From positions 1-46,680 of the IMG/VR virus record IMGVR_UViG_3300021364_000041: a DNA stretch of 46,680 nt; one strand, given 5' to 3'. How positions within the stretch are numbered: position 1 is the first letter of the stretch; the number at the start of each line of letters is the position of its first letter. Position numbers and translations under genes: made by a program. The DNA comes from a virus. Shown here one piece after another: positions 3,379 through 42,273 of this stretch. Below the pieces are notes generated by a model, which saw only the letters and a program-made list of their open reading frames with translations, did not search any database and was not told the origin of the DNA.

Positions 3379-3386
3379 TATTTATT
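3379..3386 (-). promoter_or_regulatory. Late-promoter-like octamer AATAAATA before gene at 3354
   Basis: The octamer matches NATAAATA on the minus strand, 24 nt before ATG 3354. With initiation about 6 nt downstream it would give a leader of roughly 19 nt carrying the GGAG ribosome-binding site. It overlaps the stop codon of the upstream B12 radical SAM gene (3382-3384). This is a conventional leader, in contrast to the leaderless layout elsewhere. Confidence 0.5.
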
Positions 3387-4827
3387 CTTGTCTTTTTTTC
3401 AATTTGTATTCAAAAAAGTTTTCATCGTCGTGTATGTTTATTAATTTATATCCAATAAGTTCGCTCACTTCTCTGAGCTCTTTTGCACGACTAACACGTT
3501 TTTCAAATGTTAAACTTGGAACAACTGTGCTTACCCATTCGGATTCTTTGTTGTTGTCAAATGTATACAGATGACTAAATTTATCTGTCAATGGTGTATT
3601 GTCTAATAGACGCAGTGTTTTTCCAATAGTAATATCTATACCATGTTTATAATAACTGTATTTGTGTAATAAGTCAATACTTTTTTGATGGTCATCATCA
3701 GTTTCTGTCGGATACCCAACTAAAAACATTAGTTGTATTCTTATATCATTCTTTGCACATTGATCCAATGTATAAATCATGTCTTCTTCAGTAAATCCTT
3801 TAATGATATCATTTCGGACTTTTTCACTTCCGCTTTCAATACCAATACTAACAGAATGGCATCCTGCTTTTTTCATATTAACAAAATCGTCTGGTGGCAT
3901 TTGTGTTTCTGATCTACATATAAATTGCCCACTCCAAACTATTTTATCTTGAATATTACTGTTATACCTTGACATTACATAACACAAATCACGAAATGCT
4001 TTCATACTTCCATTGATTAGACTATCCATAAATCTATAAGAAGTTACTCCAAACTTTTCTTTGTTACTAATCATTTCTTGCGCAATATTTTCTCCAGTTC
4101 TAAATCTATAAGTTGGCCATATTGCTGCAACATTGCAAAAAGTACATTTTCGAACACATCCTCTGCTTCCAACAATAGGAATAGAAACTTCACAACTTTT
4201 ATATTTTGGAAAGTCTTTGAAAAAATCTTCGTAATTAGGATATGCTATACTGTTTAAGTCGTTTAATGACGTTTTGTTTTCTTTGTTGTTTACACTAGGA
4301 TGACTTTTGCCCTGTAATATATATTGTATTGCTTCTTCACCTTCGCCGTATACAGCATAGTTTGCTAGTCCGTTATTTAAAAAATATTCGCCTACATCAG
4401 CACTTCCGATACCAGTATCTTCAGTACCATTTCCGCCGACAATTATTTCAACGTTAGGATAAAGTTCTTTTATAATTTTTGAAAATATTATACCTGGATA
4501 AATGTTATAGACACTAAAAAGTCCAATACCAATTCGTTTGCAGTTATCAAATGTGTCTTTATAAATCTGAATATAATCCCTAAAAAGTTGCTCTGCTTGT
4601 ATATGAGCTTCACAAGAACTATCCATATTCTCAATGTTATGTTGCATAAAATAGTTTATCATTGGTTGCAAGTCGATATCTTGATTTTGTATCCATATAT
4701 TCATGTCCTTTGCAACACTATTAAATCCAACTTGTTCAGCTGCTGACTTTATGTAATAAATTCCAGGAGTAGGGCTCGGACTGAATATTTCAACTATTGG
4801 CATACTAACTACAACCAAATCAATCAA
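3382..4827 (-). CDS. B12-binding-type radical SAM protein
   Basis: A 481-residue protein with a Rossmann-like cobalamin-binding-type N-terminal domain (IDLVVVSMP first strand, later IIVGGNGTEDTG and YAVYGEGEEA) followed by a radical SAM barrel with CVRKCTFC, cysteines 224, 228 and 231, for the 4Fe-4S cluster. Enzymes of this layout often methylate or rearrange unactivated carbons in lipids, cofactors or natural products. The classic DxHxxG cobalamin motif is not seen. The start is the TTG at 4827: it opens the first beta strand and has AAGGA 8 nt upstream, whereas ATG 4803 would cut that strand off. It overlaps the upstream sulfotransferase-like gene by 8 bp. Substrate unknown. Confidence 0.88.
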   Translation of the reverse strand: MIDLVVVSMPIVEIFSPSPTPGIYYIKSAAEQVGFNSVAKDMNIWIQNQDIDLQPMINYFMQHNIENMDSSCEAHIQAEQLFRDYIQIYKDTFDNCKRIGIGLFSVYNIYPGIIFSKIIKELYPNVEIIVGGNGTEDTGIGSADVGEYFLNNGLANYAVYGEGEEAIQYILQGKSHPSVNNKENKTSLNDLNSIAYPNYEDFFKDFPKYKSCEVSIPIVGSRGCVRKCTFCNVAAIWPTYRFRTGENIAQEMISNKEKFGVTSYRFMDSLINGSMKAFRDLCYVMSRYNSNIQDKIVWSGQFICRSETQMPPDDFVNMKKAGCHSVSIGIESGSEKVRNDIIKGFTEEDMIYTLDQCAKNDIRIQLMFLVGYPTETDDDHQKSIDLLHKYSYYKHGIDITIGKTLRLLDNTPLTDKFSHLYTFDNNKESEWVSTVVPSLTFEKRVSRAKELREVSELIGYKLINIHDDENFFEYKLKKRQE

Positions 4828-5443
4828 TATTATATTCCTTGAATTTTTTTTCTATTTCTTCAATATTTGGAAAGTATGATTCGTAGTTTACGAGTAAAGA
4901 AAGTTTCTTATGCACTTTACTTGTAAATGTCAAATCTTCATAGTATACAATATTTCCTTCGCAGTTGTTTAAATGTTGCAGTATGTCAAAGAATTGTTCT
5001 AAACTACGATTGTAATCATAATCGACCCAATTAGAGTTTATATCATTTATGTAATTGGTATTTTCGATTTCTACTCCTGCAGTTGACCATTGATTAAAAT
5101 CTTGAAACAAAAAACTTAAAAACCAACGCCACTTATCTTTACGTTTTAGTACAAGAATTTGATCATCTTTATAAAAGTCTTTAAACCATATATTATAATA
5201 ATCTTTTTCTTCTGTTATAAGGTAATTAATATGATGTTTGAATGTGTAATTTCTTCCTTGTGATTTTTCTTCATTAAGCCAATTAATTTTTTCTTCCAAA
5301 CTTAGTTCTGGAGAAATATCAGGATTTAAAAATTCAGATTTTGGCCCAGTAGGATACACATTAGGTAACAGCAAATTTTCTTCTTTAATTTTTTCGTAGA
5401 AATAACTACTGCCTGCACGTGGTGCACTTAATAATACTTTCAT
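4820..5443 (-). CDS. Sulfotransferase-like P-loop protein
   Basis: A 207-residue protein beginning with VLLSAPRAGSSYFYEKI, which resembles the 5'-phosphosulfate-binding loop of PAPS-dependent sulfotransferases (a P-loop variant rich in Ser, Arg and Gly immediately after the first strand). DDQILVLKRKDKWRWFLSF is comparable to the family's conserved arginine strand. The C-terminal half is unremarkable. The gene overlaps the upstream GNAT-like gene by ATGA and runs into the radical SAM gene by 8 bp, so the three are probably co-translated. No sulfate-activating gene is visible here, so PAPS would come from the host. A non-sulfotransferase P-loop protein is the alternative. Confidence 0.55.
   Translation of the reverse strand: MKVLLSAPRAGSSYFYEKIKEENLLLPNVYPTGPKSEFLNPDISPELSLEEKINWLNEEKSQGRNYTFKHHINYLITEEKDYYNIWFKDFYKDDQILVLKRKDKWRWFLSFLFQDFNQWSTAGVEIENTNYINDINSNWVDYDYNRSLEQFFDILQHLNNCEGNIVYYEDLTFTSKVHKKLSLLVNYESYFPNIEEIEKKFKEYNID
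4836..4840 (-). promoter_or_regulatory. Ribosome-binding site AAGGA that selects a TTG start
   Basis: AAGGA lies 8 nt upstream of the TTG at 4827 and too far (about 32 nt) from the alternative ATG at 4803. It supports TTG initiation of the B12-type radical SAM gene and lies within the end of the preceding coding region. Confidence 0.6.
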
Positions 5444-6042
5444 AAGTAATCCCTAGCATCAACTATCAAATCGCTTTTTGGTTGCCATACAAAGTCTGGA
5501 TTTTGTAATCTAATGCTATAAACATACTGTACAATAGGCCCAGTTTTAAATAAGAAATCTTTTTCTAATTCTAAACTATTATACCATTCACCTTGTGTCC
5601 ATTCGTTAAAACTACTAACGGTCATGCGTTTTTTACGCTGATATAATGCATTGATTGCACGTTTTGTAATATCATGTGTCACATAAAGTATTTCAAATCC
5701 TTGTTCCCTAGCCCATGGTATCTGTAATTCTCCCATGCGTAATCCACAATGGGTAAATCTGTAATCTTTAAGTATATGATATCTACATATTCTTACTGCA
5801 GTATCAGGATCATTTGTATAATGACTACGCTCTGCTGCACTAATAGATATAAGTTTATCTTCTACAAAACACATCCATGTTTCGATATTAGGATCGTCTG
5901 GATCATACGATCTTGCTTTGTATTTTTTTAAACTATCGTTGCCTTCTTCTATACTTTTTTCTGCAAATTCCCAAATTTTATCACGATAACTATCTGGATC
6001 TTCGCTGTATCTATAAATCGAAATGTTCGGTTGTGATTGCAT
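5440..6042 (-). CDS. GNAT-like N-acyltransferase
   Basis: A 200-residue protein with a GNAT-like pattern: a strand pair around WMCFVEDKLISISAAERS, then RICRYHILKDYRFTHCGLR where the acyl-CoA-binding turn normally sits, GFEILYVTHD, and NALYQRKKRM near the final helix. Acyl-CoA-dependent acetylation of an amine is the family reaction; the acceptor is unknown. The N-terminal start ATG 6042 lies inside the upstream oxygenase gene, a 32 bp overlap. No glycine-rich R/Q-x-x-G-x-G/A is perfectly preserved, so this is a fold-level guess. Confidence 0.5.
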   Translation of the reverse strand: MQSQPNISIYRYSEDPDSYRDKIWEFAEKSIEEGNDSLKKYKARSYDPDDPNIETWMCFVEDKLISISAAERSHYTNDPDTAVRICRYHILKDYRFTHCGLRMGELQIPWAREQGFEILYVTHDITKRAINALYQRKKRMTVSSFNEWTQGEWYNSLELEKDFLFKTGPIVQYVYSIRLQNPDFVWQPKSDLIVDARDYL

Positions 6043-6805
6043 ATTCTTTATATTTGTTCCAACTTTTTTCTAATAGTTCATGCCACAGTGGCAAATCGTA
6101 AACACCATGTATTACTAATTGTACACGTTCTCTCATTGAGAATCCTCTGTCTACACCATGTTCAAACACAGCACCATCGTATGCAAATGCATTTGTTTCA
6201 GGTGGCAACATTGGATAAATTTGTGTAGCATCACTGTCTCGAGTCATGTAGAAATGTTCATTCTGCCAATCAGTGACACGACTCCATCTGAAATGCAAGT
6301 GACTAGGTGCTTGTGCTTTTAGTATATCGCTTATTGCCAATTCTTCATCATAATGACAAGGTATCGCTTGTGGTGATTGTACAAAAAACGCCTGGTGAAT
6401 TGTTTTGAATGGTAACTCTTTTACATAGTCAATTACTTCAGGAAATGCTTCTAATGCAAAATCGTACCAGTCTGGATCTGCGCCTGCTTGTCCACACATG
6501 TTTGGCTTTAGAAATGTTAATTGTCCAACATTTCTTGTTTGATAGTAGTATTGCTGCAGATCCGGATCTTCTGCTAGGTCTGCTACCAGATCCATGTCAA
6601 CATCTAAGTAAGGAAGATCAACTGGTGTCCACACCATGTTTCTATATCCGTTATATTCGTCATCTAGGCTCAGATACTCGTAACTAGGCCTATCTACTTT
6701 AACAAGTGTACCTGGATCATCATTTATATAACGTCTAACTGGTTCACCGTTTTCTAAATATTCAATCTGGTTTCTTTTTATACGATAGTTATTTGTATTG
6801 TACAT
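6011..6805 (-). CDS. 2OG-Fe(II) oxygenase, aspartyl beta-hydroxylase-like
   Basis: A 264-residue protein with iron ligands His151 and Asp153 in AIPCHYDEELAIS and His216 in GAVFEHGVDRGF, followed by the basic ERVQLVIHGVYDLP strand expected to bind 2-oxoglutarate. The H-x-D to H distance (about 65 residues) and the helical N-terminal part suit the AspH-like family. AGGA lies about 9 nt before ATG 6805. It overlaps the upstream methyltransferase by 17 bp and the downstream GNAT-like gene by 32 bp, and ends in TAG. Hydroxylation of a protein side chain or small molecule are both possible. Confidence 0.7.
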   Translation of the reverse strand: MYNTNNYRIKRNQIEYLENGEPVRRYINDDPGTLVKVDRPSYEYLSLDDEYNGYRNMVWTPVDLPYLDVDMDLVADLAEDPDLQQYYYQTRNVGQLTFLKPNMCGQAGADPDWYDFALEAFPEVIDYVKELPFKTIHQAFFVQSPQAIPCHYDEELAISDILKAQAPSHLHFRWSRVTDWQNEHFYMTRDSDATQIYPMLPPETNAFAYDGAVFEHGVDRGFSMRERVQLVIHGVYDLPLWHELLEKSWNKYKEYAITTEHFDL

Positions 6806-7280
6806 CTAATATTGTCCTATGTCCTACAGGTATGTTTAAATCAAAATCATACCTTGTGTGCTCATAACGGTTAAAATAATTTAAATCCATGTATGGCAAG
6901 TCGTCTGTGTTATTGTTATTTACTTCATGTACAATTGCACGTTTAACTTTGTAAAAATCACAAACTCGTTCAAACATAGCTGCAGGATCCGTATTGTATA
7001 TCAACACACTGCTGAAGACAACAAGATCTGTGCTCATATAGTACAAATTATCCCAGTCTCTAACTTCAAAGCAGTGCTTTGGATACTGTGCACGTGCATA
7101 CTCAACTGGCTCTTCACTAGTGTCAAAACCATAATAGTAATAATCATAATTGGTCAAATAACGATTGAGTTCGCCTGTTCTACAACCTACGTCGGTTATT
7201 CGATTACACTGATGCTGTTTAATAATCTGAGCTATTGTACGATACAGTATACTGGCTTCAGCACTGTCTAAATAACTCAT
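6789..7280 (-). CDS. Class I SAM-dependent methyltransferase-like protein
   Basis: About 163 residues from ATG 7280. The SAM-binding strand-loop is RITDVGCRTGELNRYL (DxGCxTGxL), followed by YYYYGFDTSEEPVEYARAQY, whose aspartate would bind the ribose, and LVVFSSVLIYN in motif IV position. This is a small methyltransferase lacking a large substrate domain. A longer reading frame starts at 7334, but it would overlap the TauD-like gene by 50 bp; ATG 7280 lies 4 nt after that gene's stop and keeps the whole fold. Product and substrate are unknown. It sits between two oxygenases, consistent with tailoring chemistry. Confidence 0.75.
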   Translation of the reverse strand: MSYLDSAEASILYRTIAQIIKQHQCNRITDVGCRTGELNRYLTNYDYYYYGFDTSEEPVEYARAQYPKHCFEVRDWDNLYYMSTDLVVFSSVLIYNTDPAAMFERVCDFYKVKRAIVHEVNNNNTDDLPYMDLNYFNRYEHTRYDFDLNIPVGHRTILDVQYK

Positions 7281-7284
7281 TGCA

Positions 7285-8103
7285 TCAATAGTGTAGTTCT
7301 TCTGCAGGTGTGATGTGTTGATAATCACAAGCAATTCTCCAAAGCAATCTGTTTCTATCTAACACAGGTGTGCGTCTATGCAATGTAGTAAATTGATCCA
7401 TTAACAACAAATCTCCACGTTTGAAGATATGATGATATTGATGTCGACCTCGAAATATGATAGGTTTTAAACGCTCGATAATAGATTCCGGGTCTACTCG
7501 CTTTTTACCTTCCCAAGCACCTACAATAAAATGATATGGAAAATAAAAATAACTAAGACCTGTGTGCGGATGTTCTCCTACTAATGATCTGATGCTACCT
7601 CTATTTTTACTCATAAATTCAAGTTCAGGATCGTCATCGTCTAAATGATACATAGTATTGTTTTGGAATTTTATTTTAATTTTAATATTACGCCAGTACT
7701 CTTGTTCATCTTCACTGAGCATATAAAAAGGATCACTAGTATTACAGATACTCAGTGTGGTATTAATATCTTCTTCAATACAATACAAGCCAATTACAAT
7801 TTTATCTATTAGATGTCTGCTATTACCATTACTGTGCCACCCTAATTCAGTATCGCCGAACATGCCAATTTTTTTCCCGTCACTGTCACGTTTACCTGTG
7901 ACAAGAAAAATTTCTGGATATTTTTTTGGATTCATAAACAAATCGGGAGCTTCGCATTCTCCAAACTGTTTCATAGTTGCAATGTATTCACTTTCGGTTA
8001 GTTGTTGATCGTGAAAGACCACACAACCTGTTTTTTGTAAGTCTTCCGCTATTTTATGTAAGTCTGCGTTTTTAATATCCGCTGTATATCTATTCGGTGT
8101 CAT
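7285..8103 (-). CDS. TauD/TfdA-like 2OG oxygenase with an HxN metal motif
   Basis: A 272-residue protein of the TauD/clavaminate-synthase type. The C-terminal MDQFTTLHRRTPV holds the second histidine (242) and WRIACDY the 2-oxoglutarate arginine (256), both in the canonical context. The first motif reads ELGWHSNGN, so His90 is present but the carboxylate expected two residues later is Asn92. That could mean altered iron binding, a halogenase-like site or loss of activity. AAGGA lies 10 nt before ATG 8103. It overlaps the upstream PLP gene by 14 bp. Close relatives hydroxylate small acids or amino acids; the substrate here is not known. Confidence 0.82.
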   Translation of the reverse strand: MTPNRYTADIKNADLHKIAEDLQKTGCVVFHDQQLTESEYIATMKQFGECEAPDLFMNPKKYPEIFLVTGKRDSDGKKIGMFGDTELGWHSNGNSRHLIDKIVIGLYCIEEDINTTLSICNTSDPFYMLSEDEQEYWRNIKIKIKFQNNTMYHLDDDDPELEFMSKNRGSIRSLVGEHPHTGLSYFYFPYHFIVGAWEGKKRVDPESIIERLKPIIFRGRHQYHHIFKRGDLLLMDQFTTLHRRTPVLDRNRLLWRIACDYQHITPAEELHY

Positions 8104-8875
8104 TGTAATACTGTTCCTTAATAAGATCGGCTATACATATTCTATTTGTATAGTTTCTTTTAAATTTATTATACACTGGATCTTGTGTATTTGCAAGCCA
8201 TACTGCATCACTCGGTTCAAAATTAAGTTCAGCACATATGTTACGCTGATATGGTTCTAGTGTACGATACACAACAGCAGGATCGACACAGTTCATCAAG
8301 TGTTCGCCAAGTCCCATACTATAATAGTTATAATACTTAGCACTTTGATGTAATGCTTGTAAACGCTGATCTGGTTTCCTGCTAAAGTAATAGCCTATTC
8401 TATAGTTACGTAATCCAAAACACTTACTAAAACTGAAAAATACACGTTCAACATTATCTGTTATTGTAATATGCTGTTTAGCAGTACTTAAAAGATATGC
8501 TAAATCTAGCACCACAGGACGATCATCAGGTATATTTCTAAAGTTGCCGTCGTAGCTAGTAGGATTACTAACATAAACAACTTCTCCATCTGTTTTACCT
8601 GTAACCCACTGGTAGTCGCCTGGTGTTATTTCAATGGTTCTATTTTCTTGCCACTGCCAATAGTTAAGAGCTTCAGTTATTCCATTAACAGGGTAAATAT
8701 ATTCAAAATTTGATAAATCAACATAAGGCCGAAGATAGTCTACAATTTTTGTCTCAAGAGTTCGTATGGCAATATGATCTCGAAAACGATAACTTTCAAC
8801 TGCTGATACTACTTCTCGAACAGGGAAAGTTCTTATAGCCATACTCTGATTAAGTATTTGTGTTTGTTTATCCAT
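8090..8875 (-). CDS. Small PLP-dependent aminotransferase-like protein (fold type I)
   Basis: About 261 residues from ATG 8875, shorter than usual class I/II aminotransferases (about 350-400). The order of motifs is right: VSNPTSYDG (Asn104, like the NPxNPTG strand), VVLDLAYLLS (Asp124, pyridine nitrogen partner), and FFSFSKCFGLRNYRIGYY with Lys151 as the PLP Schiff-base lysine. The usual C-terminal arginine that holds the carboxylate is not obvious. A GTG at 8902 would extend it by 9 residues into the desaturase gene; ATG 8875 immediately follows that stop. It could aminate a keto sugar or an amino-acid precursor. It ends in TAG within the start of the next gene. Confidence 0.72.
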   Translation of the reverse strand: MDKQTQILNQSMAIRTFPVREVVSAVESYRFRDHIAIRTLETKIVDYLRPYVDLSNFEYIYPVNGITEALNYWQWQENRTIEITPGDYQWVTGKTDGEVVYVSNPTSYDGNFRNIPDDRPVVLDLAYLLSTAKQHITITDNVERVFFSFSKCFGLRNYRIGYYFSRKPDQRLQALHQSAKYYNYYSMGLGEHLMNCVDPAVVYRTLEPYQRNICAELNFEPSDAVWLANTQDPVYNKFKRNYTNRICIADLIKEQYYNDTE

Positions 8876-8876
8876 A

Positions 8877-9527
8877 TTAAGCGTTTTTAAATATGCCGAC
8901 ACGTATTAGCTGTTGTACTATCCAGCCGCCTGTGTCCCAGCGATGTAGTCGAATACGTCTGAAATTATTGTGATGTTCACGATGGTATCCTTCGCCGGCA
9001 ATTAACAAATTCAACCACGGCACATTTGATCCACCTTCTTCACGATGTCCTATAGTGTTCAATAATCCGAATCCTAATTTAGCGTGTATAAAAGGCATAA
9101 GTGCAAATGCTACAAAGAATTTAAAACTGATCAACAAGCTGATGATCCATACCACTGCTACAATTTTAAACCAATGATGATGGCAGAATACTAAAAGTGG
9201 ATTGGCAAATAAATCTTTTGCATACTTTATAGGTATACGAGGTATGTCCCATGTTGTTAATAATACTTTCCAATATCCTACATGTTTCCAACTGTGTGGA
9301 TCTTCAGGACCATCGCTGTGTACATGATGCATTCTATGACTTGCGATCCATCCAATGGGACTACGAATAACTGCAATCATAAGCATTGCAAGTCCAATAA
9401 CTTCAAACCAAATCGGTACACGGAATTGTTTATGGCAATAATATCTGTGAAGTAAAATACTAGCACCCCAATGAGAAATTAATGTTCCCCATAAGTATCC
9501 GATTATAATTACATATATCCAATCCAT
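8877..9527 (-). CDS. Membrane fatty-acid desaturase (acyl-CoA delta-9 type)
   Basis: A 216-residue integral membrane protein with the three histidine boxes of stearoyl-CoA-type desaturases: HRYYCHK (27-33), HRMHH (64-68) and HREHHNN (182-188), which hold a di-iron centre. Hydrophobic segments lie near 4-18, 40-55 and 115-145. The reaction is O2-dependent insertion of a double bond in an acyl chain at the cytoplasmic face of the membrane. It is somewhat shorter than bacterial homologues (about 270-300) but no box is missing. Start and the upstream stop share one base (TAATG). Carrying it would let a phage change host membrane fluidity or make an unsaturated acyl group. Confidence 0.9.
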   Translation of the reverse strand: MDWIYVIIIGYLWGTLISHWGASILLHRYYCHKQFRVPIWFEVIGLAMLMIAVIRSPIGWIASHRMHHVHSDGPEDPHSWKHVGYWKVLLTTWDIPRIPIKYAKDLFANPLLVFCHHHWFKIVAVVWIISLLISFKFFVAFALMPFIHAKLGFGLLNTIGHREEGGSNVPWLNLLIAGEGYHREHHNNFRRIRLHRWDTGGWIVQQLIRVGIFKNA

Positions 9528-10261: not shown

Positions 10262-11383
10262 CTATTTATCTAGAATTTTTCGCTTGGGTATTTTACTATC
10301 AGCACTACTAACACATGCAGGTGTTGTACAAACACGTGGTCCATCAAACAGTTTAAATCCTGTTTCTATATTACCTAGAGGAACATCATGACAACTGTAG
10401 CTACGCTTAATACTACCGTCAGGCTCACGGATAATAATACCGCTATACCCACTTTGACACATCCATCCTTCAAACTTGTTAAATCCGAAAGCATTAAATC
10501 TCTCCGCTTGATCCATATACCATTTTTTGCCTTTACTATCTGTAAACTCTACTTGCATATGCCATGGTACACTTTTGTCGTTTTCGCCTATTGCATAAGG
10601 CGGCAATTCGAAACTTGGCCTTGGACGATCTGCCCATTTTCGCTTTGACTCAGTATACGCCATTTGCGGCATACCGTTCCACAATCGCTGTAACATTTCA
10701 TCTGAATAACCGTCCACGACTCTTGACGCCGTTGGGTCGGATTGTGGCTTGAGGGTAACGTTGATTCCTTGTTCGTGGAAGAATAAAGCATTTTCCCAAT
10801 CTTTTTCAAACCACTCCGGAACCATGACCATATTGATAGTAATTTGTACATCGTGTTCCTGACACAGGATCAACTTGTCTGCAAAGTCCTGCATTTTCTC
10901 ACGTGTATTTAAGTGTTCAGTGTGTAAACTAGCGGTTATACTTGCTCTATGAAACGGTTTTGCACGTTCTACATAGTCCTCAAACCAACTCATCGGTCTA
11001 GAACAGTTACTTGTCATGTGTATACTAGTGTAATTAGTATTAGGCACATCATCAGCCAGATACCCCAATATGTCCAAGTATCCAGGGTGGAAGGTAGGCT
11101 CGCCCCCACTAAGACTAAAGTGAAAACTATTAAATCCATTATCACGTGCTTGCCTCTTTATTTCATCAATAGTCTTAAGACATAAGTCGGTGGGTCTGTG
11201 GTCTTTACGGTCTGATCGGGCGTAGGGCCAACAATAGCTGCAACGATAATTGCAAAACCTACCAAGTAACCAACTAACAGTAAACAAATCTCTGTAAAGA
11301 AGAGTACGTTGACCCACTTGTACGATGTCGTCGTATGGGATTTTGGTAAAATCATATTCACTCCATTTTAAATCTTCAGTCAT
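10262..11383 (-). CDS. Radical SAM protein (GGEPT class) next to a PP-loop ATPase
   Basis: A 373-residue radical SAM enzyme with cysteines 44, 48 and 51 in FCNYRCSYCWPY, the SAM-binding FSLSGGEPTFHPGYLDIL, and a C-terminal region with CQSGYSGIIIREPDG, YSCHDVPLG and a CTTPACV pair that may hold an auxiliary cluster (SPASM-like). The start is ATG 11383, preceded by GGAGAA 11 nt upstream; the longer TTG frame would start inside that site. The lead-in TVSWLLGRFCNYRCSYC resembles TVTWDVGRRCNYDCTYC of the gene at 14243, so these two are paralogues. It lies just after the QueC-like gene and is last in its transcription unit. Substrate unknown. Confidence 0.88.
   Translation of the reverse strand: MTEDLKWSEYDFTKIPYDDIVQVGQRTLLYRDLFTVSWLLGRFCNYRCSYCWPYARSDRKDHRPTDLCLKTIDEIKRQARDNGFNSFHFSLSGGEPTFHPGYLDILGYLADDVPNTNYTSIHMTSNCSRPMSWFEDYVERAKPFHRASITASLHTEHLNTREKMQDFADKLILCQEHDVQITINMVMVPEWFEKDWENALFFHEQGINVTLKPQSDPTASRVVDGYSDEMLQRLWNGMPQMAYTESKRKWADRPRPSFELPPYAIGENDKSVPWHMQVEFTDSKGKKWYMDQAERFNAFGFNKFEGWMCQSGYSGIIIREPDGSIKRSYSCHDVPLGNIETGFKLFDGPRVCTTPACVSSADSKIPKRKILDK
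10263..10270 (-). promoter_or_regulatory. Late promoter octamer GATAAATA embedded in a stop codon
   Basis: Minus-strand GATAAATA lies 19 nt before ATG 10243, predicting a leader of about 14 nt that carries AAAGGA. The same bases encode the last two residues (Asp-Lys) and most of the TAG stop of the upstream radical SAM gene (10262-10264), so promoter and stop codon are superimposed. Confidence 0.65.
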
Positions 11384-11387
11384 AATA

Positions 11388-12101
11388 TTAAAATTCTCCA
11401 AAAGCCCATTTACGTTCTAAACACCACCAGCATTTACCACATGGTTTATATTCAAAATCAGGCTTGTAATATGTGTGTACTGGAATATCTTCGCAACTTC
11501 TTGTTAATTGTAGCAAATCATCAACATTATATTGTTTATACATATCTGCAATAAATCTTTTATCTACATTTACAAATGGCAAGTAATATCCTTTATCAAA
11601 ATATTCCCATGCTGTTTGCCAAGTCGGATTATTTCTATTTGCAGACCTGTCACTAACTTCTAGTGTATTTACTAAGTTAATATTTTGATTGTTTATATTT
11701 TCAACTGTTACATCATCGGGAGGAATTGCTGTAATTCCAGAGATCACACAATCGATTCTGCTTTCCTCAAATAACTGTTTTTCAAAATCTCTTACGTAAG
11801 ACATTTGTTGTGTATCTCTGTAAAAATTATAGTGTATGTCGAAGTTATCAAATTTGAGATTATCGATTGTATAATTTATTACATCAGCAGCTTTACGCCC
11901 ATTCCATCTATGTTTTTCGTCGTTCGAACAACTTATTACATTAATTTTAGTATCGTTACGATTATTATCCTTAAGATATTTAACTATCATATATAATAAA
12001 ATACTACTATCAGCACCGCCACTGCAACGTACACCCAGCTGATGTTTATCATCTGGTATCTCAAAATTTATAGTCTGTTCAAAGCTATCGCTTAATAACA
12101 T
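11388..12101 (-). CDS. QueC-like PP-loop ATPase
   Basis: A 237-residue N-type ATP pyrophosphatase. The PP-loop is CSGGADSS (Ser27 to Ser33). The C-terminus has LTRSCED followed by PCGKCWWCLERKWAF, matching the zinc-binding SCY...CGxCxxCxxR..GF tail of QueC (7-cyano-7-deazaguanine synthase), which turns a carboxylate into an amide and nitrile using ATP and ammonia. No FolE, QueD or QueE is visible, so a true preQ0 route is not shown; a related ATP-dependent amidation is possible. ATG 12101 overlaps the upstream stop by one base (TAATG) and has AGAGGA before it. Radical SAM genes lie on both sides. Confidence 0.8.
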   Translation of the reverse strand: MLLSDSFEQTINFEIPDDKHQLGVRCSGGADSSILLYMIVKYLKDNNRNDTKINVISCSNDEKHRWNGRKAADVINYTIDNLKFDNFDIHYNFYRDTQQMSYVRDFEKQLFEESRIDCVISGITAIPPDDVTVENINNQNINLVNTLEVSDRSANRNNPTWQTAWEYFDKGYYLPFVNVDKRFIADMYKQYNVDDLLQLTRSCEDIPVHTYYKPDFEYKPCGKCWWCLERKWAFGEF

Positions 12102-13060
12102 TATAAATCCTCTTTGATAAATGTATCTCGTTTCATTTGTTTGCAGACTTGCATACACCTAGGCATTGGCTGATCACTATCCCAACTGTTTTGAATACCT
12201 TGCCAAATATCACTATGTATTGCATCTTCAATAGTTGCGTGTTTAAGGTTAATAGTTTGCATATAATCGTTATTTTTTAATAATGATTCAAACTCATCTT
12301 TATGTTCTTCGCTTGCACTATATTCTAACATCTTACTATTTAAATGACAACATGGGATAACATTGCCCATATGGTTAATAAAGATACGTTTTTGATTTCC
12401 GTACTTACAACTAACATATGGTATTTCAGGAGCATTGTCAATCTTTTCCGTTTTTGCAGCCTTGACTGTATCTCCTTTTGATTGTTTACGATGACTGATT
12501 ATTGTTTTAAAACTTTTAAATCCTTCGTCTGTTGCACGTTGTTTAGCTTCTTCAAGTTGGTGTTCGTTATGTTCAAATACAATAAATTGCCAATTGCTAC
12601 GTCCGCCTGCAGCATTAAACGCTCGAAAATTTTGTTCTACTTTTACAAAATTACTTCCTTCTCTGTATACTTCACTAAGTTCATCGCTTCCGTCGATTCC
12701 CCAAGTAACTGCATGACTGCTAGGTAATATACCTGCTAATTCTTCCCACCACTTAGTGGTACGTAAACTGCCGTTGGTAGCAATGTTTATGTGTGCGTTC
12801 CAATCTGCAAAATGTCGTATAATATCAAAAAATTGTGGATGACTAGTTGGTTCATCTACACTACCACAAAAATTAATAATCTTAATATTAGGAAACATTG
12901 ATTTTTGAAAACGTTCACGTATTGTATCTATAGTAATATATTCTTTATTTAATATTTTATCAGCATGTTTTGACAATACACGAAAGCACCCTTTGCATTC
13001 AATATTACAAAAACTAGTAAGCTCTATATCAAGCCATTCGATTGTGTCCATTGTCCACAT
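12101..13060 (-). CDS. Radical SAM protein, HNEHQ subgroup
   Basis: About 319 residues from ATG 13060, which shares one base with the upstream stop and has GAGGAA in front. The cluster cysteines are 18, 22 and 25 in SFCNIECKGC. The usual GGE is replaced by NFCGSVDEPTSHP, and a VFEHNEHQLEEAKQRA segment matches the genes at 23459 and 25933. Later come SCKYGNQKRIFINHMGNVIPCC and a terminal RCMQVCKQM, a SPASM-like cysteine set for auxiliary cluster(s). This is one of three paralogues scattered in the window. It probably modifies a peptide or small molecule; nothing in the sequence names the target. Confidence 0.85.
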   Translation of the reverse strand: MWTMDTIEWLDIELTSFCNIECKGCFRVLSKHADKILNKEYITIDTIRERFQKSMFPNIKIINFCGSVDEPTSHPQFFDIIRHFADWNAHINIATNGSLRTTKWWEELAGILPSSHAVTWGIDGSDELSEVYREGSNFVKVEQNFRAFNAAGGRSNWQFIVFEHNEHQLEEAKQRATDEGFKSFKTIISHRKQSKGDTVKAAKTEKIDNAPEIPYVSCKYGNQKRIFINHMGNVIPCCHLNSKMLEYSASEEHKDEFESLLKNNDYMQTINLKHATIEDAIHSDIWQGIQNSWDSDQPMPRCMQVCKQMKRDTFIKEDL

Positions 13061-20461: not shown

Positions 20462-20466
20462 ACTTG

Positions 20467-20474
20467 TATTTATT
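20467..20474 (-). promoter_or_regulatory. Late promoter octamer AATAAATA, 5 nt before ATG 20461
   Basis: Minus-strand AATAAATA followed by CAAGT and then ATG. Late T4-type transcription starting 6 nt after the octamer would begin at the A of the start codon, giving a leaderless mRNA. It is one half of a divergent pair with the plus-strand octamer 9 bp away. Confidence 0.7.
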
Positions 20475-20483
20475 AACTACGTA

Positions 20484-20491: not shown

Positions 20492-20496
20492 ATATT

Positions 20497-32357: not shown

Positions 32358-33560
32358 TTACCAATCTTTAATAATACTTTCAAGTTCTGGTGCAGCGATT
32401 AATAAACTATTCTGTCTAATACGGTCTAGTGTATTAGTAAAATTAATAGCCCGCTTGCGATATTTTTCCAATTGATTTTGATCGTAAGTTTCACTAGTCA
32501 TATGATATTTTAAAAATTTCCATGTAGAAAATCGACTATCATCTTTAATTCTATTATCCACTAATTCAATTATTTTTTCACGTATATCCATTGGTAGTAA
32601 ATTAATCTCTACATTATGATCAAATCTAGCAGGATTTAAAGCAACATGATTTATATCAAACTGTTCTACCCAGTCTATCAGATCTATTAGACCGCCAATG
32701 GTATACCAACTCTGTGTACTATTTAATCCTAGTACTATGTTATCTAATCCACTGGTAGATAATTTTTTAAAATTGTCATCAATAGTTTTCCAGTCTGTTC
32801 CAAATCTTGCATATTCTGCTCTTTTACCAACAGCGTCTATACTAGCACCAATGTGTACTTTTTTAAAGTGTTTCCACAAATCAATAATATTTTTTCCAAA
32901 ATGATTAAGTTTAAGCATATTGGTATTATAAGTTAGTACGACATTAGTATTATTGTTTTCAATTAAATATTCTAATATATCCCAATGTAATTTACTGATT
33001 AGAGGCTCGCCTCCTGCAAAATACATAGTAGCTAGTTGATTATCTAATTTTGGAATAATATAAGACCTTAAATGTTGATCGGGTGCGGCTGCCTGTACTG
33101 CTTGTGTTCCTTTTGGTCTAAATGTATATCCATCTACTTTGCTGTAATTTTTTATAGCTTCTTGATTTATAAGGCTGCTGTATCCAGGATCACACATAAT
33201 ACATTTCATATTACATAAATTTGTATCACGGATGTCCCACAAACTAATAAAATTATCTGACAACTCACCGGTATCAATAATTGAAATTTGATCCCAAATG
33301 TAAGAGTAACCGTTATTACCTATTTGTCTCATACTACGCTTGCCTATCTTTTCGTCTTCCCAGCATCTATTACATACTGGGTTTTCTATTCCAGATAACA
33401 AATCTTGTCTTAATTGTTTCCAATTTTTATTGTTACGACTATAATCAATATCTTCTACTGTGCTGTCTCCCATGCTATCTACTAGGCAACAAGGCGTAAC
33501 TTTACCATTGGGCTGAATATGGCATCCTCTCCATGCGTATATACATTTTTTATCTGTCAT
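32358..33560 (-). CDS. Twitch-first radical SAM protein
   Basis: A 400-residue protein: Cys6 and Cys13 at the N-terminus, TPCCLVDS (24-25), CNRC at 63-66, then radical SAM cysteines 116, 120 and 123 in LCNMKCIMC. The SAM motif is FAGGEPLI and the shared block SIDAVGKRAEYARFGTDW. It stands alone among sugar and SGNH genes, with ATGA overlap to the SGNH gene upstream and 3 nt to the nucleotidyltransferase downstream. This placement links the radical SAM group to the sugar-modifying genes. Substrate unknown. Confidence 0.85.
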   Translation of the reverse strand: MTDKKCIYAWRGCHIQPNGKVTPCCLVDSMGDSTVEDIDYSRNNKNWKQLRQDLLSGIENPVCNRCWEDEKIGKRSMRQIGNNGYSYIWDQISIIDTGELSDNFISLWDIRDTNLCNMKCIMCDPGYSSLINQEAIKNYSKVDGYTFRPKGTQAVQAAAPDQHLRSYIIPKLDNQLATMYFAGGEPLISKLHWDILEYLIENNNTNVVLTYNTNMLKLNHFGKNIIDLWKHFKKVHIGASIDAVGKRAEYARFGTDWKTIDDNFKKLSTSGLDNIVLGLNSTQSWYTIGGLIDLIDWVEQFDINHVALNPARFDHNVEINLLPMDIREKIIELVDNRIKDDSRFSTWKFLKYHMTSETYDQNQLEKYRKRAINFTNTLDRIRQNSLLIAAPELESIIKDW

Positions 33561-35109: not shown

Positions 35110-35214
35110 TTAATCATATATAAACGGATCTTTTTTCTTAAGGTCTTTGAGCTTACGTCGATAAGCGAGTTCCATTTTAATTTTATTATATATATTCTTT
35201 ATTAATTTAATCAT
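35110..35214 (-). CDS. 34-residue microprotein ending KKDPFIYD
   Basis: A short gene whose ATG (35214) overlaps the stop of the methyltransferase gene as ATGA. The protein has a hydrophobic/basic N-terminal helix (MIKLIKNIYNKIK), a basic middle (YRRKLKDLKKK) and the tail DPFIYD. It is the second member of the family with 29667-29783 and 37748-37873. An alternative in-frame ATG would remove the first 13 residues; the ATGA coupling and the N-terminal helix shared with the other two favour the longer form. Function unknown. Confidence 0.7.
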   Translation of the reverse strand: MIKLIKNIYNKIKMELAYRRKLKDLKKKDPFIYD

Positions 35215-35951
35215 TTTTTGTATAATCCATATATAAATCCACTTGTAAACTCATATGATTCTAATCGTTGCATAGTACTATCATATGTGTTATCTGTATT
35301 TACACTTGACCAGATTAAGTCAGTTTGTGTTTGTTTAGCAATTTGTTTAAACTGTTGTAATGAAATTGTTGTTTCGTATGGATTATCGAATTGATCTCTG
35401 TACCAACTAGTCCGTTGCTGCTCATCGGTTATCCAAGGTGTCATTTTAGTGAATAGCTTATATCTTTTATTTTCTGGATATCTGTTAAAAAAATCAAACA
35501 TAGCTTTTCTGCTTTGATCGTGATATAGTCCAATAAACGTATATTTATTGCTAGAATTAATTGCTAACGCTATCAGATCTTCTATATTGTTATTAGGTAT
35601 ATGATGCAAAACACCGATACTTACTACTGTATCAGCTGACTTTTTAGTTTGTATAATATTTTCCATGAAAAACTGGCTATTATGTCTCTGATGATTTTTG
35701 CTTGTATTAATATTTTCTTGTACAAAATCAATACCAGTTACTGAAACTTGTGGAAAATTTCTAGCAATACGATTGCTTAACCATCCTTGCCCAGATCCCA
35801 TTTCTAAAACAGTTTTACTTTCTTGTATTGCTGATGTTAATTCTGGCCAAGGTGTATCTGATTTTTTTATTTGTGCCTCTATATACTGATATTGAGTTTT
35901 ATTAAACGGTAAATGTTCGTAAAATTTTTTGACTACATTATCAAAAATCAT
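35211..35951 (-). CDS. Class I SAM-dependent methyltransferase
   Basis: A 246-residue protein with the canonical motif I TVLEMGSGQGWLSNRIARNF (ExGxGxG), then VSVTGIDFVQENINTSK (motif II, Asp binding SAM ribose), FFMENIIQTKKSADTVVSIGVLHHIP (motif IV, with His-His-Ile-Pro typical of small-molecule methyltransferases). The remaining half would contact the substrate. It overlaps the SGNH gene upstream by 11 bp and the microprotein downstream by ATGA. It probably O- or N-methylates a sugar or metabolite made by its neighbours. Confidence 0.88.
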   Translation of the reverse strand: MIFDNVVKKFYEHLPFNKTQYQYIEAQIKKSDTPWPELTSAIQESKTVLEMGSGQGWLSNRIARNFPQVSVTGIDFVQENINTSKNHQRHNSQFFMENIIQTKKSADTVVSIGVLHHIPNNNIEDLIALAINSSNKYTFIGLYHDQSRKAMFDFFNRYPENKRYKLFTKMTPWITDEQQRTSWYRDQFDNPYETTISLQQFKQIAKQTQTDLIWSSVNTDNTYDSTMQRLESYEFTSGFIYGLYKK

Positions 35952-37065: not shown

Positions 37066-37718
37066 AATTTACTCCAAATATAATCTGCCCAAGGACCATG
37101 AACGTTGATATTATAATGCCCACTATCAATGTCACCGTTTGTATGCATTGCATACTTGTCATTACTATTAATGTTATTAGCAAATTCTTTAAATGTCATT
37201 GGATCTATTAATGTATTTTCAATCGACTGAAGTTTTACAGCATAAGGCAAATCGACTTGATCCATATTAGGCCAACTATCTATAAACATAAACTTCTTTC
37301 CAGGTAAGTTAGATACAATGCTTTGCATAGAATGCAAATTAATCAAATAATGTAATGCTTGATAATTTTTGGTTTCTACTATTGTTTTAAAATATTTTAA
37401 TCCATATATAAAGTCACATTCTATCTCTTTGTTCAGACTGGTCATGTTACTATACTGTAGCATGTCTTTGTTATTATTTCTAGGATCGTCGTGCATACTT
37501 GCTGACATATTACTAGGTATTTGCACTATAACTATATCATCTGATTTAATTTGATCACGAATAAGCAGTAATTTCATAATTATATAACTCAATGATGCAC
37601 CTGCCATAGCATGATTTACAAACTCGTATCCTTTTGTATGAGCAATTATTTTACTATAACTAGTATCAGAATTAAATCCAACGCTATGGCTTGCTCCCAG
37701 ATTATATAATTTTTTCAT
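37062..37718 (-). CDS. SGNH-hydrolase-like protein, first gene of the long minus unit
   Basis: A 218-residue protein with LYNLGASHSVGFNSD as block I, HAMAGASLSYIIMKL as block II, VIVQIPSNMSAS near block III (Asn), and GDIDSGHYNINVHGPWADYI as block V with Asp-x-x-His. AAAGG lies 8 nt before ATG 37718. It is divergent from the plus-strand microprotein gene, with 29 bp between the start codons, and heads a minus unit running to 25933. No late-promoter octamer is seen on the minus strand here, so its promoter is uncertain. Confidence 0.74.
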   Translation of the reverse strand: MKKLYNLGASHSVGFNSDTSYSKIIAHTKGYEFVNHAMAGASLSYIIMKLLLIRDQIKSDDIVIVQIPSNMSASMHDDPRNNNKDMLQYSNMTSLNKEIECDFIYGLKYFKTIVETKNYQALHYLINLHSMQSIVSNLPGKKFMFIDSWPNMDQVDLPYAVKLQSIENTLIDPMTFKEFANNINSNDKYAMHTNGDIDSGHYNINVHGPWADYIWSKL

Positions 37719-37734
37719 TGAATATACCTTTTAC

Positions 37735-37742
37735 ACTAAATA
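37735..37742 (+). promoter_or_regulatory. Imperfect late-promoter octamer ACTAAATA, 5 nt before ATG 37748
   Basis: ACTAAATA differs from NATAAATA at one position and lies exactly 5 nt before ATG 37748, the same spacing as at 350, 20461, 20497 and 24594. It favours the second ATG as start of the microprotein gene. A single mismatch in AT-rich DNA makes this weaker than the others. Confidence 0.4.
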
Positions 37743-37747
37743 TGTAT

Positions 37748-37873
37748 ATGCTAAATAAAATAATTTCAATATTAACCTATCCAATAACTGTAGTTTCTAA
37801 ATTACAACGTCACCGACGATTTAAAAAGAAAATAGCTGAGATAGAAAAAGAAGATCCGTTTATATACGATTAA
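37748..37873 (+). CDS. 41-residue microprotein ending KEDPFIYD
   Basis: The only plus-strand gene in the right half. ATG 37748 is preferred over the ATG at 37742 because of the promoter spacing. The protein has a hydrophobic N-terminal segment (LNKIISILTYPITVVSKLQ), long enough to touch or cross a membrane, a basic middle (RHRRFKKKIAEIEKE) and the tail DPFIYD. It is the third member of the family with 29667 and 35110. Having its own transcription unit and an independent position argues that it is a real gene. Function unknown. Confidence 0.72.
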   Translation: MLNKIISILTYPITVVSKLQRHRRFKKKIAEIEKEDPFIYD

Positions 37874-37876: not shown

Positions 37877-38539
37877 TTATTTACACTCATATTTCCATTT
37901 ATACATTAACTGTGCCAACTCAAATTCTTCTTCCGTATCAATGTCAATATGCTCACTCATTGTACATGGAAAGTAATCAAAATTTCTGGGAATAGGATAA
38001 CCATCAACTGCTTTAATATCTTTCAATGGTGCCAATATTCCTGCCCATGGTAATTGATATACTGGTTTAAGTTCTTGACTGTAAGCATGATAATGACCTG
38101 GCATAAAGTTAATGCCTATCTTATCGTGATTCATATAAAAATGCTTATGAGGATGTACCACTACTTGATTATTTCCGGTTTCCGTATAACGTTGGTACAT
38201 CTCGTCATATCTATTAAATAGCGGAACCATAGTATTACTATAATTAACCAAGGTATCATCGCTCACTGGTAAACTTTCATATATATGCTTCATAACAATC
38301 GGCCATGGTGGTCCATTTTGTTCATCGCATAAATGCTCTTCACGTTGAATGTATGTAATATGATCTGTGTTTTTCACATCTGGATCATTTGTACTAACAT
38401 ATACATGATCGGCGCCGCTGCGAAGAAACTGTTCTAATTTAATATTCACTAGAGTTTTGCCATTATAAAATTCACGGTGATGTTTATTTGGACATCTACT
38501 ACTGTACATCTTGTACATTGTCATTGCTACCCAGCTCAT
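37877..38539 (-). CDS. CMP-sugar synthetase-like cytidylyltransferase
   Basis: A 220-residue protein. The N-terminus has SSRCPNKHHREFYNGKTLVN, resembling the R-x-x-x-K-N nucleotide loop of CMP-N-acetylneuraminate synthetases, followed by DHVYVSTNDPDVKN (S-T-D/N-D-P-E), and ends HIDIDTEEEFELAQLMYKWK, the family's closing DIDTEEDFELA helix. The product would be a CMP-activated nonulosonate-type sugar. The N-terminal strand before the loop is weak, so function should be treated as probable. ATGA overlap with the gene upstream. Confidence 0.72.
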   Translation of the reverse strand: MSWVAMTMYKMYSSRCPNKHHREFYNGKTLVNIKLEQFLRSGADHVYVSTNDPDVKNTDHITYIQREEHLCDEQNGPPWPIVMKHIYESLPVSDDTLVNYSNTMVPLFNRYDEMYQRYTETGNNQVVVHPHKHFYMNHDKIGINFMPGHYHAYSQELKPVYQLPWAGILAPLKDIKAVDGYPIPRNFDYFPCTMSEHIDIDTEEEFELAQLMYKWKYECK

Positions 38540-39642: not shown

Positions 39643-40634
39643 TATATATCCTCAATTTCTACACTAGATAATTTAAATTGTGTAACTAAGTTATAAAAAT
39701 CATCTTCACCCCAATCATTATATTCATCTGAAATAACTCCTAAGATAGGATTTTTACAATACAAATGTTCAGGTGCTGTGTAGTCTACAAATTCTGATAG
39801 GTCATGCTTATCGATAAATTCTTTCAATGATTTAACATACATTTCGTGTCGATTTTGAAAATTTTTGTTTGTTTTTTCAAAAAAATTGCCTACATGATAT
39901 GTTATCATTGTTTCGCCGCCGATATCAAGTTGAGGACGTAGCATGTTGTCACGAACTACAGATGGATCATCATCGTAAACACAATGCATCATATTTTTTC
40001 CTACAGTAGCATATCCTAACCACAACTGTGCTGGCTTCCAAATTGGTAATTCCACATCCCTGAAGTATTTTTCTCTAAGTTCGTTAGTAACAGGTTCTCT
40101 TAAATCTTTATCAAACAATCCAAAATTACAAACATGAAAATTGGAATAACTTTTATAATCTAAACTAGACGTCTTAATAGCAGATTCAAGTGCATGTATG
40201 TCATGATTGATCTTTTTAAAAGATTTTAAAACTTGATTAGTTTCATCTTCGCCATACTTTTGAGAAAAGGTAATATTGGAAGATGCATCTTCTAATGCTT
40301 CATGAAATCTTTCATGTAAATAATTTAAAACATCTTGTGTGATTTCTTCTAAAGTTTCAGGCCATTCGAGATTTGGATTCATTTTTCGAGCTATATTAAC
40401 ATTGTGTGTAATACGATTATATATTTCTTCCTTGTTCACTTTTGCAGGAAAACTAGTATGTTGACTATAATCTTGCGGTTCTGTAATATCTTGAGATAGT
40501 TTACGTTCTATTACTGTGCGCCATAAGCGTGTCAGTTCGTTATCATATATATCATATGAAATTGTTTGTGTCTCTTCAGAATCGGGTTTTTTCCAATGAA
40601 GTATATATTTAAACAATTTATTAACCTTTCTCAT
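39642..40634 (-). CDS. Protein of unknown function, intact paralogue of the split gene
   Basis: About 330 residues from ATG 40634, which overlaps the upstream radical SAM stop by 14 bp; a TTG further upstream is less likely. Visible phrases are WKPAQLWLGYATVGKNMMHC, RPQLDIGGETMITYHVGNFF and YCKNPILGVISDEYNDWGEDD. It is mostly helical in the first half. I do not recognise the family. Its value here is as the intact relative that shows the next gene downstream is broken or recoded. Position directly after a twitch-first radical SAM gene suggests it could be a partner or substrate of that enzyme. Confidence 0.75.
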   Translation of the reverse strand: MRKVNKLFKYILHWKKPDSEETQTISYDIYDNELTRLWRTVIERKLSQDITEPQDYSQHTSFPAKVNKEEIYNRITHNVNIARKMNPNLEWPETLEEITQDVLNYLHERFHEALEDASSNITFSQKYGEDETNQVLKSFKKINHDIHALESAIKTSSLDYKSYSNFHVCNFGLFDKDLREPVTNELREKYFRDVELPIWKPAQLWLGYATVGKNMMHCVYDDDPSVVRDNMLRPQLDIGGETMITYHVGNFFEKTNKNFQNRHEMYVKSLKEFIDKHDLSEFVDYTAPEHLYCKNPILGVISDEYNDWGEDDFYNLVTQFKLSSVEIEDI

Positions 40635-42273
40635 TACTTTCTTTTGTTGCAGCAAGATATTCTGCACTTTTTAAAATTCCTGTACTAAAATCAGTTTCAT
40701 TTTTGTCTGCATCAAAATTCTTAGCATACTCTTGCATACACACATCATAAAATTCAGCATACTCAGGAAATGTTTTGTGAAAATCTTTACCGCGGCGCTC
40801 GCTGTATTGTTTCATAAAATATGCAAACTTGCTACGATTTCTTTGTATTTCTGGATTTGTAGTTAACCCATCTTCGCCAATTTGTTTTGCTTTAAGAATA
40901 CAACCTATTACATTCCGTTTGAGTTTTAGACATTCATGATCATCAAATTTTTGTGTAATATACCATTCACCATGTCCGAGGTTATCATACATAAAATCTA
41001 CAGCAGGTATTAGATATTTTTCAATCATTTCCTTAGTTAAAATATTTGCATCTAAGAACTGAGGGTGTCTCAAGTAAGGAATGTCAACAGCAATTCGATT
41101 GTGTAATCCAAGACTACGTTCTTTACGTTCAGCAAAAGATCTACTATCAGGAACACTACGATTATATCCTTCTTCTTCTAACCAATTAAAAAATCCTTGA
41201 TAACTAAAACGCTTTTTTAATCCAAGAATCCATTCTAACAGTGACTTAAATGTACTAACACTTAGTACATTGAATGCACACATAAACACTACTTTTGTAC
41301 CTTGTGTTTCATTTAAAAAACTCTCTATATTATTAACAAACAAATTCCAATCCATACCATCACGAATAAAATCATTCTGTGGTCCAGTTGCTTCTGCACT
41401 AGTGTATAACTCAAACTGTTTCACACATCTATTTTCTGTCAGAGTTTTGACTTTATCGATAAATTTGCTCCATAAATCTCCTGGAGGACATGCATTACTA
41501 TTAATAGCAAAAATTAAATTTGGATTAGGGTTTTCTATTAGGAAATCTAAAACTTTAAATGTATCTTTGCTCATCAACGGTTCGCCGCCGGTGATACGAA
41601 AGGTATGCATTTTTTTAGATGCTTCTGGGAACCATTTCCAAAATGCTTCAATATATGGATTATGTTCGTTATTGTTATAATGCTCTTCTTCTTCATTAAT
41701 AGGATTATAAATGTGATTAAACACATCGTATGGGCCTTTTTGTTTAACTTCTTGTGCCCATTTACTGCTAAATGGAGGACCGCAATATGCACAAGCAAAA
41801 TTACATACACGACTAAAACTAACTTCTACATATGTAGGATCAAAATTTTCATCTCCTGTAGATTTTGAAATTATGTCATGATGTGGAGCACTAAATGACG
41901 GAATACTTTTCAATACACGATCACTAATTTCACCATTATCTTCTACACGCCAACAAAAATCACATTCAGAAGGACGTTCTCCATTGAGCATTTCCTTTCT
42001 GAGTTGTTTTTTATATTCAGTATTGTGTAAAGCACTTGGATTATCCTTTAGTTCTTCTAATGGAATTTTGTGTGCACCCGGATGGTGACAACTGTGTGTT
42101 AATCCATTGCCTAAATGCATAGTAACTTGTGTCCATTTAGCCAGACAGAATCCAGGACCTGTATTATTTAACAGATCACGCATTTGATTTCGATTATGTC
42201 CGGTGAGACCGTATTCGTCTTTTTTTGGACCTACCATATCCCATTCATAGTCATTGAGTTTGTTTTGTGTCAT
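40621..42273 (-). CDS. Large twitch-first radical SAM protein
   Basis: At 550 residues the longest radical SAM protein of the window. N-terminal cysteines are 43, 62 (a TSCHHPG variant of the usual paired cysteines) and 104-107 (ECDFCWRVED); radical SAM cysteines are 157, 161 and 164 in VCNFACAYC. The SAM motif is ITGGEPLMSKD and the shared block SAEATGPQNDFIRDGMDW. The extra length is a C-terminal extension beyond the barrel. GGAAAA lies near ATG 42273 and a 37 bp gap separates it from the upstream gene. Substrate unknown. Confidence 0.85.
   Translation of the reverse strand: MTQNKLNDYEWDMVGPKKDEYGLTGHNRNQMRDLLNNTGPGFCLAKWTQVTMHLGNGLTHSCHHPGAHKIPLEELKDNPSALHNTEYKKQLRKEMLNGERPSECDFCWRVEDNGEISDRVLKSIPSFSAPHHDIISKSTGDENFDPTYVEVSFSRVCNFACAYCGPPFSSKWAQEVKQKGPYDVFNHIYNPINEEEEHYNNNEHNPYIEAFWKWFPEASKKMHTFRITGGEPLMSKDTFKVLDFLIENPNPNLIFAINSNACPPGDLWSKFIDKVKTLTENRCVKQFELYTSAEATGPQNDFIRDGMDWNLFVNNIESFLNETQGTKVVFMCAFNVLSVSTFKSLLEWILGLKKRFSYQGFFNWLEEEGYNRSVPDSRSFAERKERSLGLHNRIAVDIPYLRHPQFLDANILTKEMIEKYLIPAVDFMYDNLGHGEWYITQKFDDHECLKLKRNVIGCILKAKQIGEDGLTTNPEIQRNRSKFAYFMKQYSERRGKDFHKTFPEYAEFYDVCMQEYAKNFDADKNETDFSTGILKSAEYLAATKESNEKG

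Follow-up and report, generated by a model that had tools for sequence, protein, structure and literature searches.

The virus record IMGVR_UViG_3300021364_000041 of IMG/VR, analysed here over its entire 46,680 bases (the window), contains an island with fourteen radical S-adenosylmethionine (SAM) genes, eight of which encode proteins of one family with a twitch-type cysteine module in front of the radical SAM barrel (N-twitch proteins). We propose that this is a modular, hypervariable island that tailors a polysaccharide or glycolipid of the host envelope by radical chemistry, a reading based on gene context and protein folds to which we give a probability of just under one half. The presence of its core genes in polysaccharide loci of bacteria, and of conserved glycosyltransferase-like partners, suggests a glycan substrate.

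In the window, exactly 14 genes match the radical SAM profile PF04055, all but one above its cut-off; the exception, open reading frame (ORF) 24474–25940, scores 229 bits against the NCBIfam profile NF033640. CxxxCxxC motifs are present in 14 of the 55 predicted proteins (0.125 expected from residue shuffling). The count of fourteen in a preliminary description of this DNA is confirmed. The genes, named by their first coordinate, are listed below.

15454–16848, minus strand: N-twitch radical SAM protein (NF033640, alignment, tree)
17697–19097, minus strand: core N-twitch radical SAM protein (NF033640, 411.8 bits)
19094–20461, minus strand: N-twitch radical SAM protein (NF033640, alignment, tree)
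20497–21789, plus strand: N-twitch radical SAM protein on the opposite strand (NF033640, alignment, tree)
21746–22825, minus strand: N-twitch radical SAM protein (NF033640, 160.6 bits)
24594–25940, plus strand: N-twitch radical SAM protein on the opposite strand (NF033640, alignment, tree)
32358–33560, minus strand: N-twitch radical SAM protein (NF033640, alignment, tree)
40621–42273, minus strand: N-twitch radical SAM protein of the clade nearest the tail-fibre genes in kin contigs (NF033640)
10262–11401, minus strand: core radical SAM protein without N-terminal twitch (phrog_1802-like)
25933–27015, minus strand: core radical SAM protein with C-terminal cysteines, twitch/SPASM-like (PF04055, cysteine positions)
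12101–13069, minus strand: radical SAM protein with C-terminal cysteines (PF04055, cysteine positions)
23459–24562, minus strand: radical SAM protein with C-terminal cysteines (PF04055, cysteine positions)
14243–15457, minus strand: radical SAM protein with many C-terminal cysteines (two PHROG matches in common with 10262)
3382–4827, minus strand: radical SAM protein similar to class B methyltransferases that bind B12 (closest to the PhpK family, though well under the cut-off)

None of these proteins scores above 42 bits against the viperin (pVip) profile NF038283, whose cut-off is 180. Genes 20497 and 24594 are taken to start at ATGs inside the ORFs 20455–21789 and 24474–25940, starts that we consider likelier than those of the full ORFs. 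These two ORFs are the sole plus-strand genes in a minus-strand run from position 2082 on, and their ends overlap their neighbours. A separately assembled record (L001/G029) holds a near-identical island with the same genes at 93.9–100% protein identity, twelve of them radical SAM genes, which argues against an assembly artefact.

The family profile NF033640 (twitch domain-containing radical SAM protein, N_Twi_rSAM) is matched over its full length by all eight N-twitch proteins. Seven pass its cut-off of 170 bits, at 215–412 bits, and the one departure from this closest known family is 21746, which lies just under it. In the alignment, four twitch cysteines ahead of CxxxCxxC (C10, C35, C86 and C89 in 15454 numbering) are invariant in all eight, as are CxxxCxxC itself, GGE, N262, S285, R297 (the arginine of YIRYP) and the C-terminal R443; in 40621 the CC is replaced by SCH, in which the second cysteine is retained. 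Both cysteine sets, catalytic and auxiliary, are intact, and the N-terminal module reported in the preliminary description is borne out. The cysteine positions past the barrel show no matching C-terminal auxiliary-cluster set in the eight. In combining a radical SAM core with an auxiliary cysteine module, these proteins resemble the SPASM/twitch enzymes MoaA, PqqE, SkfB and anSME, from which they differ in carrying the module at the N terminus. Indeed, the solved folds nearest to an AlphaFold2 (AF2) model of 17697 (predicted local distance difference test, pLDDT, 88.6) are SkfB, MoaA and SuiB, although the overall template modelling scores (TM-scores) are low.

The YIRYP-type block had been taken as a hallmark of the eight, 60–80 residues after GGE. 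It is present in all of them and begins 52–63 residues past GGE, close to that spacing, but it is not specific to them: related S-x-D...R blocks occur in 12101, 23459 and 25933 (in the last as SVDGLSDTNHLYRQN), and the block aligns with SIDGMDNTHDQLRG of SkfB. It represents the NF033640 form of a generic radical SAM SxD...R element, and as such it is no mark of a shared substrate.

The eight genes are old lineages gathered in one island. In the alignment, 15454 is 20–29% identical to the other seven. A tree with 147 sequences representing viral and cell loci places the eight in eight separate clades, every one of which has kin in other phages and some also in bacteria; most of the eight are closest to other phages, and 17697 is closest to cell representatives. 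A smaller, careful tree rejects a single clade for the eight (approximately unbiased test, p-AU 9.4e-52), with eight changes falling in the bootstrap range. These placements and the rejection rule out one recent local expansion. The preliminary description was thus right about what it saw, a single twitch-first family in a tailoring island that also has glycosyltransferases, hydrolases and oxygenases, and over-interpreted it as a family expanded within this phage. Its further suggestion, that each paralogue may perform one step on related substrates, is a possible one.

The core genes of the island are shared with bacteria. NF033640 occurs in 55 of 192 genomes of the phylum that holds a Bdellovibrionales metagenome-assembled genome (MAG), with up to nine scored copies each, and in 2 of 274 genomes in the class sample of G031 (titled Neisseriaceae MAG) and 2 of 399 in the phylum of G031. 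In the Bdellovibrionales-MAG phylum, orthologues of 17697 and 10262 lie adjacent or close to each other, with a 25933 homologue in the region, in eight cluster regions (L181, L183, L190, L192/193, L194, L195, L196 and L197), most of which also contain homologues of 28896/42311 or 28004 (described below). Homologues of 3382 are present in the cell clusters L184 and L192. Several of the core clusters are on contigs of 0.33–1.6 Mb, and further N-twitch clusters are on a contig of 2.7 Mb, so these are not misbinned phage contigs. GT2 glycosyltransferases make up 11 of the 81 other neighbours of the cellular core clusters, and further neighbours are sugar epimerases/dehydratases, DegT aminotransferases, Bac_transf proteins (undecaprenyl-phosphate sugar transferase type), UDP-GlcNAc 2-epimerase and asparagine synthase. 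No tail genes stand out at these clusters, and a glycan substrate therefore explains both the phage and the chromosome settings.

Much the same set recurs in viral contigs, which were scanned with single proteins as queries. 17697 has 235 confirmed relatives there, the best 80 at 81–100% identity, and 40621 has 294. In 80 loci of 17697, matches were found to 25933 in 79, 23459 in 79, 28004 in 73, 28896 in 72 and 10262 in 53; since the stretches span about 20 kb at most, these counts are minimum figures, and some of the radical SAM matches are paralogues. Median identity in these loci is 83% for 10262 and 70% for 25933. We propose that 17697, 10262, 25933, the GT-A-like protein and 28004 form a fixed core, the other paralogues being exchangeable. 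In 30 related marine viral contigs the number of radical SAM genes is 3–18 per contig, so that fourteen in one such island is not unusual and lies within the range of its kin.

The partner genes and the borders of the island are as follows.

28896–29657, minus strand: GT-A-fold glycosyltransferase-like protein with invariant D75/D77 (AF2 model, fold search)
42311–43306, minus strand: second member of the 28896 GT-A-like family (family alignment)
28004–28912, minus strand: conserved partner that on inspection looks Rossmann/methyltransferase-like (matches no family)
44230–45111, minus strand: predicted glycosyltransferase, GT8/glycogenin type (profile match)
45108–46013, minus strand: predicted glycosyltransferase, GT8/glycogenin type (profile match)
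46014–46361, minus strand: small conserved protein that adjoins the tail-fibre module in kin contigs
46428–46679, minus strand: C-terminal gene end where kin contigs have the tail-fibre module (gene order)
29756–31249, minus strand: O-carbamoyltransferase (domain match)
31659–32354, minus strand: sugar nucleotidyltransferase (domain match)
37877–38539, minus strand: cytidylyltransferase-like protein (weak PseF match)
11388–12158, minus strand: QueC-like PP-loop protein (Pfam QueC, 24 bits; homologues in cell clusters)
16838–17707, minus strand: another PP-loop-like protein, recognised by inspection (unmatched in Pfam)
3–338, plus strand: thymidylate synthase gene thyA (partial), left border of the island (domain match)
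2740–9527, minus strand: cassette syntenic with phage Mosig, other genes interleaved (identity and gene order)

The folds nearest to the model of 28896 (pLDDT 88.5) are the GT-A glycosyltransferases SunS, WrtF, RmlT and GalNAc-T; with TM-scores of about 0.4, the assignment is a putative one. Profile searches of the PDB with the 28896 and 28004 families found nothing. 44230 and 45108 match glycogenins (E 3e-6).

In the proposed scheme, unusual sugars would be made and attached, or existing ones modified, on a polysaccharide or glycolipid in the envelope of the infected cell. Activated sugars would come from the nucleotidyltransferases and aminotransferases and would be transferred by the GT-A and GT8 glycosyltransferase-like proteins, which are recognised by fold and profile. 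In each N-twitch enzyme the SAM-bound [4Fe-4S] cluster, for which the ligands are in place, would abstract a hydrogen via the 5'-deoxyadenosyl radical, and the N-terminal auxiliary cluster may serve in electron transfer or substrate binding. The outcome would be that each enzyme epimerises, dehydrates, deoxygenates or couples one particular sugar, and the product would be completed by oxygenases together with carbamoyl-, methyl- and acetyltransferases. Presumably the benefit is that receptors are altered and competing phages kept out.

The location of the island bears on this proposal in two ways. Among the kin contigs, L087, L104 and L126 show tail-fibre genes (confirmed by PHROG tail matches in L087 and L126) followed by 46014-45108-44230-x-42311-40621. 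This order recurs at the right end of the window, where the tail gene is a cut fragment at 46428–46679. At the left end stands thyA, as beside the island in L045. Judged from gene order, the island is thus located between thyA and the tail-fibre module, and it appears as a variable island beside tail-fibre genes, as in the host-recognition clusters of T4-like phages. Pelagimyophage host-recognition clusters are reported to differ by radical SAM cassettes and to carry glycosyltransferases (PMC7029224), and the matching position of the island counts in favour of the proposal. The same adjacency is the starting point of the main rival explanation, in which the radical SAM enzymes would alter, and the glycosyltransferases decorate, tail fibres of the phage itself or adjacent virion proteins and so tune host range. 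Furthermore, in Agrobacterium phage Atu_ph07 and Sinorhizobium phage Phosso a different operon with 3–4 radical SAM genes lies beside a homologous tail-fibre gene and encodes a protein of about 300 residues ending in CHxSCHASCHxSRSRR (L207:23679–24599 in Phosso, L206:24449–25339 in Atu_ph07). This tail is nearly identical in two proteins that are 42% identical overall, and it therefore looks like a candidate radical SAM substrate. The operons resemble our island in their place next to the tail-fibre gene, but their enzymes are of SPASM type without N-twitch and not close to those of the window; no such Cys/His tail turned up in the marine contigs, where a search for Cys-rich tails gave mainly PP-loop-like C termini and no substrate. 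Since the core also sits among polysaccharide genes on bacterial chromosomes, we consider modification of the virion unlikely, if still the foremost competitor.

The thyA gene at the border, together with the weak QueC-like match, could also point to hypermodification of phage DNA or RNA. The genes searched with Pfam or NCBIfam gave no QueD or DNA-transglycosylase match, and the core orthologues are in bacterial polysaccharide loci; DNA hypermodification was rejected for lack of partner genes, and we regard this explanation as highly improbable.

A peptide-derived product resembling ribosomally synthesised and post-translationally modified peptides (RiPPs), or another small metabolite released in infected cells, would fit the RiPP maturases SkfB and SuiB among the fold neighbours of 17697, as well as the PP-loop, oxygenase, nitroreductase-like and carbamoyltransferase genes, which suit a natural-product cluster. 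No precursor peptide was found in the gaps of the window, however, where the genes are packed nearly without intervals, and such a product seems distinctly unlikely, although a precursor may be encoded elsewhere or the substrate may be a larger protein. Three short K/R-rich ORFs ending in (K)xDPFIY(D/E) do lie in these gaps (29667–29786, minus strand; 35110–35250, minus strand; 37676–37873, plus strand). DPFIY[DE] peptides were rejected as precursors: they are widespread in phages, mostly without radical SAM genes nearby, and among the matches listed just 22 of 79 new loci have a radical SAM-like ORF in the vicinity, which indicates a general small-protein family of aquatic phages.

The cassette at 2740–9527 encodes an Asp/Asn hydroxylase, an N-acetyltransferase, a methyltransferase, TauD, an aminotransferase and a fatty-acid desaturase. 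Six of its genes (2740, 5440, 6789, 7285, 8090 and 8877) share their order, and 42–73% identity, with genes in the island adjoining the tail fibres of the SAR11 phage Mosig, so cassettes move between phage groups. The desaturase and aminotransferase in this colinear cassette, and a PagP gene near a radical SAM cluster of Vibrio phage K566, would agree with an auxiliary metabolism that modifies host membrane lipids or cofactors. The cassette is nevertheless apart from the conserved radical SAM core, whose cellular neighbours are polysaccharide genes, and we judge a lipid or cofactor role to be very unlikely.

Several points weigh against the tailoring of envelope glycans. The cell loci, picked by best family score, do not form a random sample. 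In phages the island borders on tail-fibre genes, as would be expected of a virion-modifying system. Most glycosyltransferase calls depend on fold similarity or weak profile matches, and the TM-scores are low; a complete NDP-sugar pathway is absent from the window, and no flippase, polymerase or ligase was recognised in it. Finally, no reaction is known for NF033640, and membership in it therefore says nothing about function. For the preliminary description, membership of each of the eight in a well-characterised pathway would have been a refutation; this is not the case, as their family has a name but no characterised NF033640 member was found.

Among known systems, the pelagimyophage host-recognition cluster, represented by Mosig (PMC7029224), is likewise hypervariable, lies next to the tail fibres and includes glycosyltransferases as well as radical SAM cassettes; Mosig, however, contains no close relative of the eight N-twitch paralogues or of the three-radical-SAM core. 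The polysaccharide-modification and metabolite clusters of jumbo cyanophages (PMC7824862, section 3.4.10) share glycosyltransferases, carbamoyltransferases, oxygenases and methyltransferases with the window, whereas the word 'radical' is absent from the text of PMC7824862 and radical SAM enzymes dominate our island. The family and the kind of island are therefore known; the radical-SAM-dominated variant and the core shared with bacteria are new. A more far-reaching version of the glycan proposal, a hitherto undescribed system found in both predatory-type bacteria and marine jumbo phages, whose fixed core of three radical SAM enzymes and interchangeable N-twitch set would produce combinatorial, radical-made surface sugars as a radical counterpart of serotype-converting islands, is speculative and rather doubtful. 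If glycan tailoring holds, phages would offer a large and so far unexplored reservoir of radical SAM chemistry on sugars, the many-copy family NF033640 would gain a testable function, and phage superinfection exclusion would be linked to the surface polysaccharides of predatory-type bacteria.

In annotated phage records, 17697 was matched only in the Vibrio phages K566 and K567, which are thus isolated carriers; the chromosomal clusters offer a second route to the core. Two radical SAM genes of K566 were compared with NF033640 and exceed its cut-off, at 193 and 202 bits. The PagP-like lipid A acylation gene of K566 (L209:18625–19074) lies 6–9 kb from its N-twitch radical SAM cluster, a setting that also counts in favour of the glycan proposal.

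The window, a genome fragment, has no capsid gene, and its phage class has to be inferred from its kin: T4-type gp23 is present in 10 of the 30 contigs, and the one searched is 69–73% identical to the capsid proteins of the jumbo phages Phosso, Vibrio 2.275.O and GAP32. The window thus probably derives from an uncultured marine T4-like phage, its capsid-bearing kin grouping with jumbo phages. Where dS is unsaturated, dN/dS is 0.05–0.14 for the core genes (0.05–0.09 for 17697), values that are rough because dS is high, and the core genes are under strong purifying selection, a further point in favour of the proposal. A horizontal sweep of 17697 was rejected, as its mean identity between contigs (82%) is about equal to that of the capsid protein (80%). 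In one pair of contigs, G012 and G023, the gp23 capsid proteins are 99.7% identical and the 17697 proteins differ by 18%, which suggests that 17697 or the island is exchanged or diverges independently.

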